Source: Methanocellales archaeon
GTDB lineage: Archaea; Halobacteriota; UBA148
Direction of reading: 5' to 3'
Assembly: GCA_030019435.1 (NCBI GenBank)
Contig: JASEEV010000010.1
Location: forward strand, 1-49,895
Length of the DNA stretch: 49,895 nt
The notes below the pieces were generated by a model. It had not been told where the DNA came from. It saw only the letters and a list, made by a program, of their open reading frames with translations, and did not search any database. Shown in pieces: positions 666 to 49,813 of the stretch (its first letter is position 1; the number at the start of each line of letters is the position of its first letter). A program made the translations under genes and the position numbers.

Positions 666-688
666 GAACATGATGCATGCCAAACGTC

Positions 689-765
689 AGATAACACGGT
701 GTATGCGGTTCGCTATCGCTCACCCAAGTTGCTCCACAACTTCGCATACACCGATACCGTTACAC
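689..765 (+). repeat. attC-like imperfect inverted repeat after the left cassette gene
   Basis: The site runs from AGATAAC to GTTACAC. Inside lie perfect 11-base arms CGGTGTATGCG (697-707) and CGCATACACCG (743-753), and a nested 6-base pair AAGTTG/CAACTT (726-731, 737-742). AAC at one end, GTT at the other, a spacer, and a stem interrupted by unpaired bases form the layout of integron attC sites. It lies 23 bases after the stop of the upstream ORF in the same orientation. An ordinary terminator would be GC-rich with a T tract and lack the AAC/GTT ends. Confidence 0.6.
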
Positions 766-841
766 CATCAATAAGTTAACAGAGTCGTTATCATTCAACG
801 GAGGCAAAACATTAAAACGATTGCCGACCTCTTTTACGTAG

Positions 842-4192: not shown

Positions 4193-4396
4193 ATGATAGA
4201 CATGGCAACTACCATACAAGTTAGAGGCACGACCAAAGACGTGCTGGATGCCATAAAAAATGAAAAAAAACTTAGATCTTATGATGAGGTCATCCAAACT
4301 CTCATCAAAGAATCGAAGAAATTGCGCCAATCAGACTTTGGGAGCCTGCCAAAACTGAGGTCATTCGTGAGGGAAGAGATTGATCGTTTTGATTGA
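4193..4396 (+). CDS. vapB: VapB-type antitoxin (ribbon-helix-helix/CopG-like)
   Basis: This 67-residue protein starts MIDMATTIQVRGTTKDVLDAIK, a beta-strand plus helix typical of archaeal RHH antitoxins of PIN toxins. The charged C-terminal tail (LPKLRSFVREEIDRFD) would wrap the toxin. The start may be ATG 4193 or ATG 4202. It overlaps the toxin gene by 17 bases. The expected role is to bind and neutralise the downstream PIN nuclease and repress the operon through the upstream dyads. Confidence 0.75.
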   Translation: MIDMATTIQVRGTTKDVLDAIKNEKKLRSYDEVIQTLIKESKKLRQSDFGSLPKLRSFVREEIDRFD

Positions 4397-4754
4397 CTCA
4401 TGGGCGTGGATCGAGTACTTCAAGGGCTCCCCAAAGGGTAGAACGGTCCAAGAATATGTAGAAGGAGACGCCTTCGTGGTCATCAGCTCGATAAATCTAG
4501 CAGAGGTCTACGGATGGATTCTCAGATTTTATGATGAAAAAATCGCTGATGAAAAAGCAGACGAGATGAAAAAGCGCTCGTTTGTCTGTCCAGTTGATGC
4601 GGAAATAGCCATAGTTTCCGCTAAGCTAAAACGCGAAAGGAAATGGAGCCTAGGCGACTCGATAATATATGCCACGGCTAAAAAAGAAGGTGCAAGGGTA
4701 TTGACTGGCGATCCACATTTCAAAGGATTAAAGGGGACTACATACATCGAATGA
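4380..4754 (+). CDS. vapC: VapC-type PIN-domain ribonuclease toxin
   Basis: This is a 124-residue PIN nuclease. The acidic active-site residues are visible: D6 (LIDSWAW), E42 (NLAEVYG), D93 (SLGDSIIYA) and D111 (TGDPHF). VapC toxins cleave tRNA or rRNA, and the target of this one cannot be inferred. Overlap with vapB gives a standard antitoxin-first operon. The stop overlaps an ATG of the DUF166 gene, so read-through transcription into that gene is possible. A second, differently partnered PIN toxin lies at 31691-32065. Confidence 0.85.
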   Translation: MIVLIDSWAWIEYFKGSPKGRTVQEYVEGDAFVVISSINLAEVYGWILRFYDEKIADEKADEMKKRSFVCPVDAEIAIVSAKLKRERKWSLGDSIIYATAKKEGARVLTGDPHFKGLKGTTYIE

Positions 4755-26769: not shown

Positions 26770-26869
26770 CCCCCCTAATCAGAGACTGTCAACTTAACTA
26801 TAGAAGGAGGTGAGGCAAGGAAACCGAAGGTTTCCGCAGAGTCATGGGTGAATACGGTGATGTTAATGA

Positions 26870-27256
26870 ACTAGGGCCGCCAGAATTCTAAATCTAAATG
26901 AATCCTTGAAAATCCTTTTTTATTTGCTAAATCTTTCGCATATTTCTGAAATTTTTCGTCATCTCCAGGTTTTAAATCCATAATTCCATTACCGTCCAAT
27001 GGTAATTCCAAAAAAAACATTTATTGCTTTTCTAGCAGCACCCCAGTTATTTTTAGCGCCCTCTAGAAATTGTTCCATAAGTTTATTTGTATATTTTTCC
27101 AACCTATTGCTAAATTGCCTTTCTGATATATCTTTGAATTTTTCGAGCATTTTCTACTATGCCTAAAGCTCCTTGCCCCCTTAAGGTTGAAGCTCCAATG
27201 GAAATGTTCGCTACTCGTTTCTGAATTAATTTGATGTTGGGCTTTTCCTTAGTCAT
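26870..27256 (-). pseudogene. frameshifted small cassette-type hypothetical gene
   Basis: From ATG 27256 (with AGGTGA upstream) the minus strand reads MTKEKPNIKLIQKRVANISIGASTLRGQGALGIVENAR. Removing one A in an A5 run lets it continue KFKDISERQFSNRLEKYTNKLMEQFLEGAKNNWGAARKAINVFF. A second one-base shift at a T8 run restores LELPLDGNG...KYAKDLANKKGFSRIHLDLEFWRP to a stop at 26870. I recall a small hypothetical family with SIxxSTLRxQG, NWGAARKAxNxFL and ARIHLDLxYWR motifs, with about 25 more residues in the middle. Both shifts are at homopolymers, so sequencing error is possible. It starts 45 bases after an attC-like site. Confidence 0.6.
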
Positions 27257-27300
27257 GATTTCACCTATTTCTCGCTGTAATTTTATCCGCCCATGATTTC

Positions 27301-27387
27301 ATATAACGGCTGGGGGATATGCGAAGTTCGAGTGTAGCGAAGGGTTTGGACGGAGCGATAGCGTAGCCGCATATCCACCTGTTATAC
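27301..27387 (-). repeat. attC-like imperfect inverted repeat
   Basis: Read on the minus strand it runs from GTATAAC to GTTATAT. Arms GGATATGCG (27368-27376 reversed) and CGCATATCC (27315-27323 reversed) pair perfectly over nine bases, and AAC/GTT ends lie outside spacers of 4-7 bases. Its 3' flank leads into the start of the decayed gene at 27256, as expected for adjacent integron cassettes. No intact ORF precedes it on that strand. Confidence 0.55.
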
Positions 27388-27648
27388 GCCCCGAAGGGCG
27401 GGGGAGCGACAGCGACCGAAGTGTAATGGAGGAAGAGAGGCATATTGAAAGCCCTCGTTTGGTGGTTCAGTTTCATCACTATATTTTCTATTTTCTGCAC
27501 TTTAAAGATGCCTATCCATTAAAATGAAGCAATTACCTATTGAATTGTTCAATATTTTAGTAACAATGATTATATAGCCCAACATAAGCAAAATACTTAA
27601 ATATAAGCCCATATATTAGTATATAGCCATTACTTAGGTGGAATTGAC

Positions 27649-27882
27649 CTGTCTGATATCTCGTTAGCAGCAATAACTCGCATCGTTAAAAAAGTAGACC
27701 CACATATCCGTATAGGGAAGTCAACAAAGGTTGAACTCCTTAACACCGTTGAGGAATATGCTACAAAAATTTCAGAGATTGCTATCACAACAGCACGGAA
27801 CGCAAATAGAAGTACTGTATTAACGCAGGATATTGAAAATGCAAAAGAACAGTTGATAAAAGGAATAGTATTTGCCAAATAA
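27649..27882 (+). CDS. archaeal histone-fold protein, missed by the ORF track
   Basis: The frame is open from 27607 to TAA 27880-27882 and reads DLSDISLAAITRIVKKVDPHIRIGKSTKVELLNTVEEYATKISEIAITTARNANRSTVLTQDIENAKEQLI. Helix-strand-helix order, 'ITRIVKK', a central long helix and 'ANRSTVLTQDI' match archaeal histones (compare HAGRKTVKxEDI). No ATG, GTG or TTG lies in frame. CTG 27649 has GGTGG seven bases upstream and is the best start, with ATT 27643 as the alternative. The start may be non-canonical or lost by mutation. The stop abuts the next ATG, so it leads the aminomutase operon. A TATA-like box lies about 45 bases upstream. Confidence 0.65.
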   Translation: MSDISLAAITRIVKKVDPHIRIGKSTKVELLNTVEEYATKISEIAITTARNANRSTVLTQDIENAKEQLIKGIVFAK

Positions 27883-29985
27883 ATGAGGAAAATTATTTTG
27901 AACCAAAAAAAAGATTGCGAACCCCATTCCGTCAAATATACCTCTATTGACGAGCATCTAATGAATTTTGGTGCAGATATTAAAGAGATTGAAAGAGTAA
28001 AAAGAAAGTACCCAATGAAAATTCCACATTACTTTTTAGGATTAATTAAAGAAAAGGAGGATCCTATTTGGAAACAATGTGTTCCGTCTATAGAAGAACT
28101 GAAAGATGTTTACAATATTGAAGATCCCCTGAGAGAGGAAAAACATACAAGGGTCTCCTGTCTCGTTCATAAATACCCGGACAGGGTCCTATTATTAGTC
28201 AGTAGTAAATGTGCAATGTATTGTAGATTTTGTACACGAAAAAGAAAAGTGGGCAGAACTCAACAGATTTCTATGGTGGAAATTTTCAGAGCAATAGATT
28301 ATATTAGAGAACACAAAGAAGTAAGGGACGTATTAGTATCAGGTGGTGACCCATTAACAAGGACGGATCGTGAACTCGAAATTATTCTTAAGGAGTTGCG
28401 ATCAATCCCCCATGTTGATATAATACGAATAGGCACTAGAATACCATGTGTGCAACCATCGCGAATTACTAAAAGACTAGCAAATATGCTAAGAAAATAT
28501 CACCCATTATATATAAATATCCATTTTAATCATCCTATGGAGATTACTGAGGAGTCTAAGAAGGCATGTGAGACATTAGCGGATGCGGGGATTCCACTAG
28601 GTAGCCAAACGGTTCTATTGAAAGGGGTAAACGATTCGGTAGAGGTCATGAAGGAATTGGTACAGAAACTCCTAAGTATCAGGGTTAAACCATATTATGT
28701 TTACCAATGTGACCCTGTTATGGGTGTAGAGCATTTTAGAACTTCTATAGATGTGGGAATAAACATAATGAAGCAACTACAAGGATTTACCTCAGGTCTA
28801 TGCATCCCACATTTTGTTATAGATGGACCTGGCGGTAAAATTCCTATCTCACCTCAATATGTTAAAGAAATTACTCCCGAAGAAATCATTGTTACAAATT
28901 ATTTAAATGATATGTATACTTATCCAAATTCACACAAGGTTTTTTCAAATGAATTGATAAATAAAGAAAGATTAAGAATTGGGCTTACATTTAATCTTAA
29001 AAGAGATCCTGCGAAAAATGAGAGATTTGATAAATATTCAGAATTTGATGATATATCCACTATTGATGCGATTAGAAAGGCAATAGAATCTGGTGGATAT
29101 GAAGTTGTTTTGTTGGAGGCAAATCTAGATTTCATTGAAAAATTGAAAAAAACTCGTGTTGATTTTGTATTTAATATAGCAGAAGGCATAAATGGAGATA
29201 GTAGAGAATCACAGGTGCCAGCAATATTAGATATGTTCAATATTCCCTATTCAGGATCTGGGGTTTTGACTCAAGCTATTACTTTGACCAAGAGCATGAC
29301 AAAGGATATACTGCTTTATCACAATATTCCAACTCCAAATTATCAATTATTTAAAAATACTCGTCAAAAACTTAAACCAGCTTTAAAATTCCCATTGATA
29401 GTAAAACCGAACTGCGAAGGATCAAGCAAAGGGATCAATAATAATTCATTAGTATTTGATGATGAATCATTAACAAAACAGATAAAATATGTGATAAATA
29501 ATTATTCCCAAGATGCTTTGGTTGAGGAATATTGCAACGGGCGGGAATTTACCGTATCTATTCTGGGAAATGTAAAACCTAAGGTTTTGCCTATTGTCGA
29601 AATAACATTCGACCATTTACCTGAGAATATAAACAAATTTGATTCTTACGAGGTTAAATGGATTTACGATAACCCGAAAAATCCTATTGACCCTATAAGT
29701 TGCCCAGCTAATCTCACACCAAAATTAAGAAAACAAGTAGAAAAGATTGCCCTTGATGCATATTCCGTTTTAGGATGTGTTGATTGTTGCAGAATAGACC
29801 TTAGACTTGATTCTAATGGCATACCTAATGTACTTGATGTTAATACTCTTCCTGGTTTAATACCTGACCCAAAACAAAATTCAAGGTTTCCAAGAGCCTG
29901 TTTTGCAGCAGGTATGACCTATAATCAAATGATTCTTGAGATTTTACATGCCGGGATGATTCGATGTGGACTGCGTAATAAATAG
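27883..29985 (+). CDS. lysine 2,3-aminomutase fused to an ATP-grasp (D-Ala-D-Ala ligase-like) domain
   Basis: The first 350 or so residues are a KamA-type radical-SAM enzyme: C110-x3-C114-x2-C117 (CAMYCRFC), SGGDPLT at about 153-159, and GGKIP with the likely PLP lysine K319. D277 (QCDPVMG) and D314 (FVIDGPGG) correspond to the two aspartates that hold the lysine side chain in known lysine 2,3-aminomutase, so lysine to beta-lysine is the likely reaction. From about residue 365 a complete ATP-grasp ligase follows (FPLIVKPNCEGSSKGI, LVEEYCNGREF, VLDVNTLPGLIP). Separate aminomutases are about 400 residues, so this 700-residue form is a true fusion. Base composition is much richer in A+T than the neighbours. 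It heads an operon with a second ligase and an acetyltransferase. Confidence 0.9.
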   Translation: MRKIILNQKKDCEPHSVKYTSIDEHLMNFGADIKEIERVKRKYPMKIPHYFLGLIKEKEDPIWKQCVPSIEELKDVYNIEDPLREEKHTRVSCLVHKYPDRVLLLVSSKCAMYCRFCTRKRKVGRTQQISMVEIFRAIDYIREHKEVRDVLVSGGDPLTRTDRELEIILKELRSIPHVDIIRIGTRIPCVQPSRITKRLANMLRKYHPLYINIHFNHPMEITEESKKACETLADAGIPLGSQTVLLKGVNDSVEVMKELVQKLLSIRVKPYYVYQCDPVMGVEHFRTSIDVGINIMKQLQGFTSGLCIPHFVIDGPGGKIPISPQYVKEITPEEIIVTNYLNDMYTYPNSHKVFSNELINKERLRIGLTFNLKRDPAKNERFDKYSEFDDISTIDAIRKAIESGGYEVVLLEANLDFIEKLKKTRVDFVFNIAEGINGDSRESQVPAILDMFNIPYSGSGVLTQAITLTKSMTKDILLYHNIPTPNYQLFKNTRQKLKPALKFPLIVKPNCEGSSKGINNNSLVFDDESLTKQIKYVINNYSQDALVEEYCNGREFTVSILGNVKPKVLPIVEITFDHLPENINKFDSYEVKWIYDNPKNPIDPISCPANLTPKLRKQVEKIALDAYSVLGCVDCCRIDLRLDSNGIPNVLDVNTLPGLIPDPKQNSRFPRACFAAGMTYNQMILEILHAGMIRCGLRNK

Positions 29986-29996
29986 GTGAATTTAAT

Positions 29997-30998
29997 ATGA
30001 ATATCGCAATGATTTATTCAAAAGGAGATATGTCAACAGCATTTCCTTACGATTTCAAAGGAAGGGAAGATAATGAAAGTGTTGAGGATGTAAAGAAGGC
30101 ATTAATATCACTTGGCCATGAGGTAGTTGTTGTTCCGGCAGACGATTGTATGTTTGAAACACTTAAAAAAATGATAGGAAAAAACAATCTGGATCTGGTT
30201 TTTAACTTGGCTGATGATGGATACAATTTGAATACGCAACTAGAACCTCAAATTCCCGCAATGCTCGACCTTCTGGGTATACCTTATACTGGTTCGGACC
30301 ATCTATGTCTTGGAAACTGTTTAAATAAGGTCAGAACAAAACATTTACTATTAGCAAATGGCCTTCCGACGCCGAAATTCAAGATATTTAATAGGAAAAC
30401 ATCTAATAAATTGGATATTTCTCAACTTAAATTTCCGCTTATTGTTAAGCCTTCAAGAGAGGATGGAAGCATAGGCATAAAAAGAGATGCTGTTGTAGAT
30501 GACCAAAAATCGTTAATTAAAAAGGTGAATGATACAATTGAAAAGTATAATCAACCGGCGCTCGTGGAAGAATTTATTGAAGGACGAGAGGTAGATGTAG
30601 GCATAATAGGGCGAGAGAAATTAATTGTACTTCCAATATCAGAAATAAATTTTACATTGCCCACCGGGGAAAGAAATTTTATATCTTACAATGGGAAATG
30701 GGAAGAAATGAGTATCTATTATCTTGGAACGACATGCCAATGCCCTACAAGATTGAATGTAGCACTCAAGAAGACCTTGAAAAAAATGGCAAAAAAGGCA
30801 TACAAATTAATGGGTGTAAAAGATTATGGACGAATCGATTTTAGAATAAGTAATGATGGTAATATCTACATACTCGAAGTAAATCCAAATCCAGATATTT
30901 CGAGAGATTCCGGGCTTGCAAGAATGGCAAGAGCATATAAAATGACCTATGAAAATTTAATCGATCGGATTGTAAAAACATCACTTGATAATGAATAA
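29997..30998 (+). CDS. D-Ala-D-Ala ligase-like ATP-grasp protein
   Basis: This 333-residue ligase has the same architecture as the C-terminal half of the preceding fusion: 'DLVFNLADDGYN', 'IPAMLDLLGIPYTGSD', 'FPLIVKPSREDGSIGIK' (about residues 146-162), 'LVEEFIEGREVDVGIIG' and the metal-binding 'YILEVNPNPDISRDSG'. The paralogy suggests a duplicated ligase acting on the product of the first. Archaea have no D-Ala peptidoglycan, so a peptide or amide bond on a small molecule is more likely. It lies 11 bases after the fusion gene with AGGTGA in front. A+T content is high. Confidence 0.85.
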   Translation: MNIAMIYSKGDMSTAFPYDFKGREDNESVEDVKKALISLGHEVVVVPADDCMFETLKKMIGKNNLDLVFNLADDGYNLNTQLEPQIPAMLDLLGIPYTGSDHLCLGNCLNKVRTKHLLLANGLPTPKFKIFNRKTSNKLDISQLKFPLIVKPSREDGSIGIKRDAVVDDQKSLIKKVNDTIEKYNQPALVEEFIEGREVDVGIIGREKLIVLPISEINFTLPTGERNFISYNGKWEEMSIYYLGTTCQCPTRLNVALKKTLKKMAKKAYKLMGVKDYGRIDFRISNDGNIYILEVNPNPDISRDSGLARMARAYKMTYENLIDRIVKTSLDNE

Positions 30999-31014
30999 TA
31001 GAGGGTTATAGATT

Positions 31015-31557
31015 ATGAAAAATGGGGTATATCTTCGTAAAGTAGAATTAAAAGATACAGAAATTTTATTTAAATGGTTTAATGATAAAGAAAATGTAAA
31101 ATATATGAGCACCATAATGAGATGTAACCCCCATTCAAAAGAGAGTATTGAGAATGAGATAAACAATTCTGATGATAATTACGAACGCCTTTTTATGGTA
31201 TGTGTTAACAGTGATGAAAAAACAATAGGATATGCGGGCATAGATGATATTGACTTTAATGACAAAAGAGCCGAGATATTTTTCCTGATCGGTGAAATAG
31301 AAGAAAAAAGAAAAGGTTATGGTAAGAAAATTGTAAAACTACTGTTAGATTATGCCTTCAATGAACTATGTTTAAACAGCCTTTTTGCAACCGCAACAAT
31401 AGAAAATAAACCAGCAATTAGTGTGCTTGAAAAAGCTGGCTTTAGCCGGATTGGAATAAGACGCCAATACAATTATATTAATAGGAAATATCTTGATGAA
31501 ATATTTTTTGATATAACACATGAAGATTATGAGATTTCAAAACGGAATAATATATAA
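31015..31557 (+). CDS. GNAT-family N-acetyltransferase
   Basis: This 180-residue protein is of the RimJ/RimL-like Acetyltransf_3 type. It starts VYLRKVELKDTEILFKWFND, has the acetyl-CoA loop 'EEKRKGYGKKIVKLLLDYAF' (Q/RxxGxG/A variant) near residues 101-120, and the C-terminal 'NKPAISVLEKAGFSRIG'. It closes the four-gene A+T-rich operon 16 bases after the second ligase. An acetyltransferase after a lysine aminomutase recalls ablA-ablB of N-epsilon-acetyl-beta-lysine synthesis, but this protein is not obviously AblB. The presence of two ligases implies a larger product. Confidence 0.85.
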   Translation: MKNGVYLRKVELKDTEILFKWFNDKENVKYMSTIMRCNPHSKESIENEINNSDDNYERLFMVCVNSDEKTIGYAGIDDIDFNDKRAEIFFLIGEIEEKRKGYGKKIVKLLLDYAFNELCLNSLFATATIENKPAISVLEKAGFSRIGIRRQYNYINRKYLDEIFFDITHEDYEISKRNNI

Positions 31558-31690: not shown

Positions 31691-32065
31691 TCATACCATA
31701 ATCGCATTTTTAACGTCTCTGAAATGCTGATCGCCCGTCAGAATCCTAGCGCCCAAAACAACAGAAGATGCAAGAACATGGGAATCCATCATTCCCCAGC
31801 CTTTAACGATCTTCTTTCTCTCATAGTTCGTCTCTCCGGCTTTGATCCCAATTTCTTCGTCTATTTCCACGATCCTTGATGTACCATATAGTAGAGGAAG
31901 AATCTCATCGAAGTCCCTGTTGTTTCTTAGAGCGTATTCTTTTAGCTCTGAGAGTGTTGTTGTTAATGTGATCAGCTCATCGCCCTCAATATATTTCTTG
32001 ACCCTTCTTCCTCTATCAGAGCCTATTATAAACTCCACCCATGCAAACGCATCGACGATGAGCAT
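31691..32065 (-). CDS. vapC: VapC-type PIN-domain toxin
   Basis: This 124-residue PIN nuclease has acidic residues D5 (LIVDAFAWVEF), E40 (LSELKEY), D94 (MMDSHVLA) and D112 (TGDQHF). It lies two bases after its antitoxin gene. It resembles the toxin at 4380 in length and termini but pairs with a different antitoxin fold. It marks the right edge of the A+T-rich island and returns to the normal base composition of the window. Confidence 0.85.
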   Translation of the reverse strand: MLIVDAFAWVEFIIGSDRGRRVKKYIEGDELITLTTTLSELKEYALRNNRDFDEILPLLYGTSRIVEIDEEIGIKAGETNYERKKIVKGWGMMDSHVLASSVVLGARILTGDQHFRDVKNAIMV

Positions 32066-32067
32066 GT

Positions 32068-32277
32068 TTAAAACTCATGATCTTCTGAGACATGCTTAAA
32101 GGGGGGCAATCCCTTCCATATCCCAAACATCTCTTCTACTTTTACTTTCTCAACACCTTTAACTATGATCTCGTCTCCCTCTCTAACGTTTGTTTCATCT
32201 AATACTTCTTTTGGCATTATCACCCCGAGCGAGTTCCCAATTCTTCTTACTTTTGCCTTGAACAATTCCAACACCAT
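32068..32277 (-). CDS. vapB: AbrB/MazE-type antitoxin
   Basis: This 69-residue protein has a swapped-hairpin N terminus (VRRIGNSLGVIMPKEVLDETNVREGDEIIV), the AbrB DNA-binding signature, and a C-terminal tail that would bind the PIN toxin. Upstream lie two TATAACAT direct repeats (32280-32287, 32293-32300) and a TATA-like element overlapping the end of the MBL-hydrolase gene. These are likely sites for autoregulation. Confidence 0.8.
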   Translation of the reverse strand: MVLELFKAKVRRIGNSLGVIMPKEVLDETNVREGDEIIVKGVEKVKVEEMFGIWKGLPPFKHVSEDHEF

Positions 32278-48793: not shown

Positions 48794-48843
48794 GTTTTAT
48801 GATCCGGGCAGTGAAAATGTGCAAGCTCCAGAGGGTGGATTGC

Positions 48844-48920
48844 GTATAACGGCTCCAGCATATGCGACGTTGCGACCGAAGGGCAAGGGCGAAGCCCGAA
48901 GCGTATATGCTGTGTTATCT
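48844..48920 (-). repeat. attC-like imperfect inverted repeat after the right cassette gene
   Basis: On the minus strand it runs AGATAAC to GTTATAC over 77 bases, the same length as the site at 689-765. Outer arms CAGCATATACG and CGCATATGCTG pair over eleven positions with one G-T wobble, and an inner GGGC-GAA-GCCC hairpin lies at 48887-48897. It starts 23 bases after the stop of the minus-strand gene. The first bases are identical to those of the left site. Confidence 0.6.
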
Positions 48921-48943
48921 GACGTTTGGCATGCATCATGTTC

Positions 48944-49648
48944 CTATCCCGTATATCCGCACATCCCAACACGTGGGGAGTTAACCACTGGCATAAGCAT
49001 ATCTTCACCGCAGGCGTGTTTGCGAGCGCACTTGTCACAAAACCATCCTTCATTATCCCAGATACATTGAGCACATACCTGCGTGGCGATCTTCCCACAC
49101 ACATCGCACGGTATCAAAGGGGGTTCATTCCTGGCCAGAAGCTGAATCGACTCGCCCTTAATTCCACCTTCTCGTTCTGCTACGACCTTCAATGCAAGCT
49201 CTGTTGTGGTTCCGAAATCGTACTCGTAACTGAACTTCGTCCCCAGAACCAACACCTTGCCGAGCGCAACATCCATGTCTCTCTCAGCGTCCAATCCGAA
49301 GAAATTTATCCACATAGCATCTATCCCCAACCCCGTGGTATATCTTGCACCTTGAATCGTGAACGCGCTCATGTGTCCACAGCATTCTACCCAGGTATCT
49401 CTGAGGAACTCATCCAAGTCTTCAAGTGTTGCAGTGGTTGGTGCATCAAGATGCATCCAGTATTTGGGCAGATAGCGTCCCTCCACTATGATATGGAAGA
49501 TTTTCGTTTTCCGTGCGCTTGACATCGCCAACGATGACCCTAACGCAGCTTTTCTTTTCTCGCATGACTTCAGGTGTTTGGTCATTTTCGCCTTACTAAG
49601 GACAGCATTGCAAAAACTACACTTTCCTTTTGACGTCTGTCTTGTCAT
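48944..49648 (-). CDS. pRiA4b ORF-3-like cassette protein
   Basis: This 234-residue paralogue of the gene at the left edge starts at ATG 49648 with AGGAGGTG upstream. Order: zinc-finger-like CSFCNAVLSKAKMTKHLKSC (residues 10-29), the pRiA4b/IS1096 TnpR-like fold (FHIIVEGRYLPKYWMHLDAP, SYEYDFGTTTEL) and a C-terminal Cys/His metal-binding region (CDVCGK...CAQC...CDKCARKHACG). It has an insertion 'GLGIDAMWINFFGLDAERD' relative to the left copy. It lies between two attC-like sites in the same orientation, so it forms a one-gene cassette. The biochemical role is unknown. Confidence 0.8.
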   Translation of the reverse strand: MTRQTSKGKCSFCNAVLSKAKMTKHLKSCEKRKAALGSSLAMSSARKTKIFHIIVEGRYLPKYWMHLDAPTTATLEDLDEFLRDTWVECCGHMSAFTIQGARYTTGLGIDAMWINFFGLDAERDMDVALGKVLVLGTKFSYEYDFGTTTELALKVVAEREGGIKGESIQLLARNEPPLIPCDVCGKIATQVCAQCIWDNEGWFCDKCARKHACGEDMLMPVVNSPRVGMCGYTG

Positions 49649-49707
49649 TTTCTCACACCTCCTGATAGCATTTTACCCGATAATCTGTTCAACACACCCC
49701 GAATGTC

Positions 49708-49792
49708 ATATAACGTTTTGAGCGTATCTGAAGTCCAGCCGTTTGGCTGGATTTGGGCAAAGCGTAGCGAAGCCAGATACGCTCTGTTGTGC
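49708..49792 (-). repeat. attC-like imperfect inverted repeat
   Basis: On the minus strand it runs GCACAAC to GTTATAT over 85 bases. Outer arms GAGCGTATCTG (49720-49730) and CAGATACGCTC (49774-49784) are perfect, and CCAGCC-GTTT-GGCTGG forms an inner hairpin (49735-49750). It lies 21 bases after the stop of a partial minus-strand ORF and 59 bases before the start of the next cassette gene. Confidence 0.6.
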
Positions 49793-49813
49793 GAAGTTGC
49801 TAAATATGATATT

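Follow-up and report, generated by a model that had tools for sequence, protein, structure and literature searches.

The interior locus of the analysed window (a stretch of 49,895 nucleotides that is the whole contig C1 of a fragmented metagenome-assembled genome of 1.42 Mb, 94% complete and in 87 contigs) is quite probably what erosion has left of a small array of attC sites and gene cassettes without an integrase, in a lineage that has apparently lost this enzyme. The reading is supported by the model match and covariation of the attC, the wider attC family of the genome with its arrays on contigs C11 and C22, the failure to find an integrase in the genome, the attC platforms of relatives with and without integrase, the order of the parts (attC, 44 bp, ATG), the cassette-like G+C, the gaps and frame changes of the gene, and the greater stability of the bottom strand at all four attC sites of the window; it is opposed by the single surviving attC and by the close homologues of the pseudogene, which are without adjacent attC. 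The initial annotation had placed a third attC-like site here, accompanied by a decayed cassette gene, and this description is borne out, as the site belongs to the attC family of the genome and the gene is cassette-like in its start and G+C. The window is archaeal, since it carries an archaeal histone gene and a methenyltetrahydromethanopterin cyclohydrolase gene.

The attC site and its family

The site (27299..27391, minus strand) is supported by a leave-one-out covariance model, covariation and strand folding, and is laid out along 27391-27299 as R''-L''-variable loop-L'-R', with the boxes R'' at 27388-27381, L'' at 27376-27368, L' at 27323-27315 and R' at 27307-27300. The covariance model from five other sites of the genome, the interior one being excluded, recovered it with 51.6 bits (E 4.2e-11), the runner-up among the new window matches in the same search being an unrelated sequence with 13.4 bits. 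In the alignment of six sites of the genome (four of the window, one of contig C22 and one of C11), seven pairs of the inner helix showed two-sided changes; in 500 shuffles neither the number of cells with such changes nor the covariation score was ever matched, and every slid version of the alignment fell far short. Scanning of the window for the R''-L''-L'-R' pattern returned the four attC sites only (8 hits over both strands), while shuffled sequence gave 0.7 hits on average. The attC-like hairpin previously placed at 27387-27301 of the minus strand is thus present as located: an imperfect inverted repeat with R''...AAC / GTT...R' ends, paired inner L arms and a conserved structure. Judged from the sequence, it is to be regarded as a genuine attC, far beyond chance, and as a member of the genome's own attC family.

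Folding gave -13.4 kcal/mol for the bottom (+) strand and -12.1 kcal/mol for the top strand of the interior site, which is a small difference, the bottom strand being the more stable in 4/4 attC sites of the window. By folding free energy alone the interior attC is unexceptional (z about -1), and the Rfam scan of the window returned zero matches of any kind.

The model of the attC family found 19 matches across six contigs of the genome. Contigs C11 and C22 contain five attC sites each, and the intervening genes each end directly before an attC, i.e., in the gene-then-attC order. At the left end of the window, the attC at 685..767 (plus strand, same site family) follows a cassette gene of the PRiA4_ORF3 type (51-665, plus), while at the right end the attC at 48841..48924 (minus strand, matched by the covariance model) follows another such gene (49648-48944, minus) and, together with the attC upstream of it (49706..49796, minus), bounds one complete cassette. 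Three related-looking PRiA4_ORF3-type genes end just before an attC, namely those at 51-665 and 48944-49648 at the ends of C1 and that at L067:7034-7768 on C22. Among 41 genomes searched, 17 matched the attC model, including all ten relatives of the same family or order, and most other genomes of the phylum gave no match. An unusually large metabolic cassette was observed in one of the genomes (G006, L074:4589-7419), with an acetyl-CoA-synthetase-like gene between two attC sites.

The pseudogene and its homologues

The gene beside the site (26871..27256, minus strand), delimited by joined frames and homologue alignments, is a cassette-type member of an uncharacterised family of 175-198 aa. Its ATG is at 27256, 44 bp past the R' box, and its end at 26871; its G+C is 0.345, within the range of the other cassette genes here (0.31-0.47). 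Three frames need to be joined to read it, with the frame changes near an A5 and a T8 run. Homology to the intact members is clear across the remaining stretches, with 43% identity to the Nitrospirae member L064. Thus, the earlier description of a small gene about 45 bases past the attC with two one-base shifts holds for the start and for the vicinity of the homopolymers; it falls short as an account of the decay, as about 46 of about 178 residues are also absent (three stretches of about 5, 22 and 20 residues drop out of the alignment), and each of the frame changes falls at a gap. The A5 and T8 runs would agree with an intact gene misread through homopolymer sequencing errors; run-length errors cannot, however, remove residues, and such an explanation is very improbable in view of the missing residues and the gaps at the frame changes. 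The broken gene is therefore most likely a real pseudogene and not a sequencing artefact, as far as can be told from the alignments.

Intact homologues were found in Burkholderiales, Methylotenera, Nitrospirae, Betaproteobacteria and on Cupriavidus plasmids, as well as in one archaeal genome (G015); one partly masked copy belongs to Dadabacteria. The family had no match in Pfam, NCBIfam, PADLOC or PDB, and no homologue was found in phage records or viral contigs. A weak family match in the own genome (C22:18940) was rejected, the ORF being unrelated by eye and tRNA-guanylyltransferase-like. In the neighbourhood of the homologues, the Gabija genes GajA/GajB adjoin that of a Burkholderiales metagenome-assembled genome (L062), AAA ATPase and UvrD-helicase genes adjoin those of the Cupriavidus plasmids (L009, L010), and an AbiJ-like gene adjoins L065. 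These surroundings suggest a defence role for the family, which may be considered as a candidate uncharacterised defence-associated gene. Compared with the members beside Gabija and AbiJ genes, the window copy is homologous but broken, shortened and situated beside an attC.

The linkage of such homologues to integrons, on which the initial annotation had made the cassette reading depend, was for the most part, though not wholly, absent. No attC was found near the homologues at any of the seven bacterial loci or beside the G015 copy, the one close archaeal homologue. However, a remote homologue in the archaeal genome G287 (19% identity to the G015 copy, profile E 1.4e-6) is followed after 9 nt by the beginning of a degraded attC (18.2 bits), with intact L arms and mutated R boxes. 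The view that a stray attC and a decaying, horizontally acquired defence-associated gene are unrelated neighbours, which accounts for the bacterial homologues adjoining Gabija, UvrD-helicase or AbiJ genes and not attC, is improbable: the ATG stands 44 bp past R' in the cassette orientation, the G+C fits cassette genes, and the remote archaeal homologue in G287 does have its degraded attC.

Order of the parts and probable decay of an array

In an integron cassette, the gene precedes its own attC, and insertion by the integrase leaves the gene upstream of that attC. At the locus, the pseudogene merely follows the attC of another cassette. Its own attC was not detectable in the expected place (26770..26870, minus strand), where the covariance search with filters off gave 3.2 bits at best, and the same search revealed no second eroded attC on either side of the locus. 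A perfect small hairpin (GGAAACC-GAA-GGTTTCC, 26819-26835), possibly a terminator, is situated between the pseudogene and a DUF72-like gene. On the other side of the site, in the A+T-rich spacer between the attC and the island (27392..27639, G+C 0.359, without attC), no remains of a preceding cassette gene were recognised from the ORF list. With an attC ahead of the gene and none left behind it, two or more neighbouring cassettes were probably once present at the locus.

This order also bears on the possibility that an integrase inserted a single cassette into a secondary (non-standard) site of the chromosome and that this cassette then decayed. The isolation of the site speaks for such an event, and off-target integrase activity is reported in bacteria (PMC10127599); nevertheless, it is hardly likely, because an attC upstream of the gene and the missing attC of the gene itself would need at least two neighbouring cassettes. 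In the search for an empty site by the flanking genes, each of these turned up in few relatives, and never together.

According to the preferred reading of an eroded array, the surviving attC would come from a cassette that has lost its gene, or in which the gene can no longer be recognised, and the pseudogene would be the next cassette, deprived of its own attC and reading frame. As elsewhere among integrons, a tyrosine recombinase may once have inserted and exchanged the cassettes by acting on the bottom strand of attC in its folded form; once this enzyme was lost, the dispersed cassettes would have decayed through deletion and frameshift.

The A+T-rich operon

Beyond the spacer, the A+T-rich operon (27640-31557) runs opposite to the attC and encodes an archaeal histone, a lysine 2,3-aminomutase fused to a D-Ala-D-Ala-ligase-like ATP-grasp protein, a second ATP-grasp protein and a GNAT acetyltransferase. 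The arrival of this island had been linked to the cassette system, and that link is unsupported because of the opposite orientation, the absence of an attC at the far end of the island in the covariance search with filters off, and the occurrence of the aminomutase (66-67% identity) in the same-family relatives G001-G003, in none of which an attC was found within 1.5 kb of it. In G001 and G003 the ATP-grasp part is not fused: it is a gene of its own that comes after the aminomutase gene and overlaps it. Low G+C is common to the cassette genes and the island and does not speak for their having arrived together; on these findings the operon stands apart from the cassette system. Repeats bounding the island were also considered and rejected as weak, chance-like pairs only. 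As a guess, the operon may belong to a pathway for a beta-lysine-containing peptide. Two small toxin-antitoxin-like pairs were observed, at 31691-32277 (PIN and MazE-like by Pfam) and, similar by eye, at 4193-4754.

The missing integrase

No integron integrase was found in the 94% complete genome, the absence being no proof of loss in a fragmented assembly, and therefore no complete integron (intI and attI beside the array) is seen. In related genomes of three genera, one and the same aldolase gene has an attC platform next to it, with the integrase in G006 and without it in G001 and G000. Thus, in G006 (L074, C4) the integrase gene lies directly upstream of the cassette array, between the aldolase and dehydrogenase genes, and in G001 (L104, C4) an array of three attC, lacking an integrase, comes after this aldolase. 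In G000, an attC and a transposase-like ORF come after the aldolase, which shares 94% identity with its G006 counterpart; about 21 kb away, in the opposite orientation, attC sites stand ahead of the dehydrogenase, which shares 90% identity with that of G006 (loci L070, G000:C75:3500-8000, and L069, G000:C75:24000-31000); the two sides of a G006-type platform look here as though split by an inversion. An inherited platform that lost its integrase and was then rearranged would fit the three genomes.

Of 394 genomes from the phylum, 29 contain a related recombinase (E up to 1e-45). An attC was found at 9 of the 30 recombinase loci read, several of which end early at contig ends, and always on the same strand, downstream and within about 1.3 kb; at the loci of more distant recombinases (40-46% identical) none was found (0/5). 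The attC-linked loci are L113, L119, L123, L125, L126, L128, L138, L139 and L141, from the genomes G033, G006, G184, G005, G199, G273, G034, G312 and G170, respectively, and some of these tyrosine recombinases have a HARP-like N-terminal part. The IntI-specific additional domain near patch III is absent in all six readable attC-linked recombinases, as follows from the 27 residues found in place of the 69 of the solved integron integrase 2a3v, and from the KDR-to-HxLRH spacing, constant at 59 residues in all readable close copies, including 6/9 of the attC-linked ones. The published archaeal integrases have been described with the integron-specific additional domain (PMC9668308), and the I2 helix is regarded as what enabled single-strand recombination (PMC7790495). 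No description of attC arrays with integrases lacking the additional domain was found in the literature searchable without subscription.

It is conceivable, though rather doubtful, that the attC sites of this clade are served by a type of integrase that lacks I2, sometimes carries a HARP-like N-terminal part and has its gene immediately ahead of the first cassette on the same strand; this type would have been lost in the lineage of the window. If true, this would be a variant integron recombining folded attC by means other than the canonical IntI. In the neighbouring lineages it can be tested directly whether cassette exchange can be driven by a recombinase that lacks the integron-specific domain.

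Comparison with known systems

Archaeal integrons and CALINs (attC clusters without integron integrase) have been known since 2022 (Ghaly et al. 2022, PMC9668308). The locus shares with them the R''/L''/L'/R' organisation of attC, the gene-then-attC cassettes, the lack of a detected integrase and the similarity of attC sites within the genome; it differs in that the site is a singleton, a class omitted from that survey, and the adjacent cassette gene is a pseudogene. By the usual rule for CALINs (two or more attC, spaced by less than 4 kb), contigs C11 and C22 carry such clusters, while the interior locus has one site. Single-attC elements are also omitted by default in IntegronFinder 2.0, with the remark that they can be true positives (PMC9024848); the window site resembles these in having one attC and no integrase, but a family model drawn from its own genome validates it. 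Thus, singleton attC sites, which are usually thrown out, can be genuine, and the locus documents, for an archaeon, the persistence of attC sites beyond their integrase and the decay of cassettes in place, being a degenerate example of the already known archaeal cassette systems.
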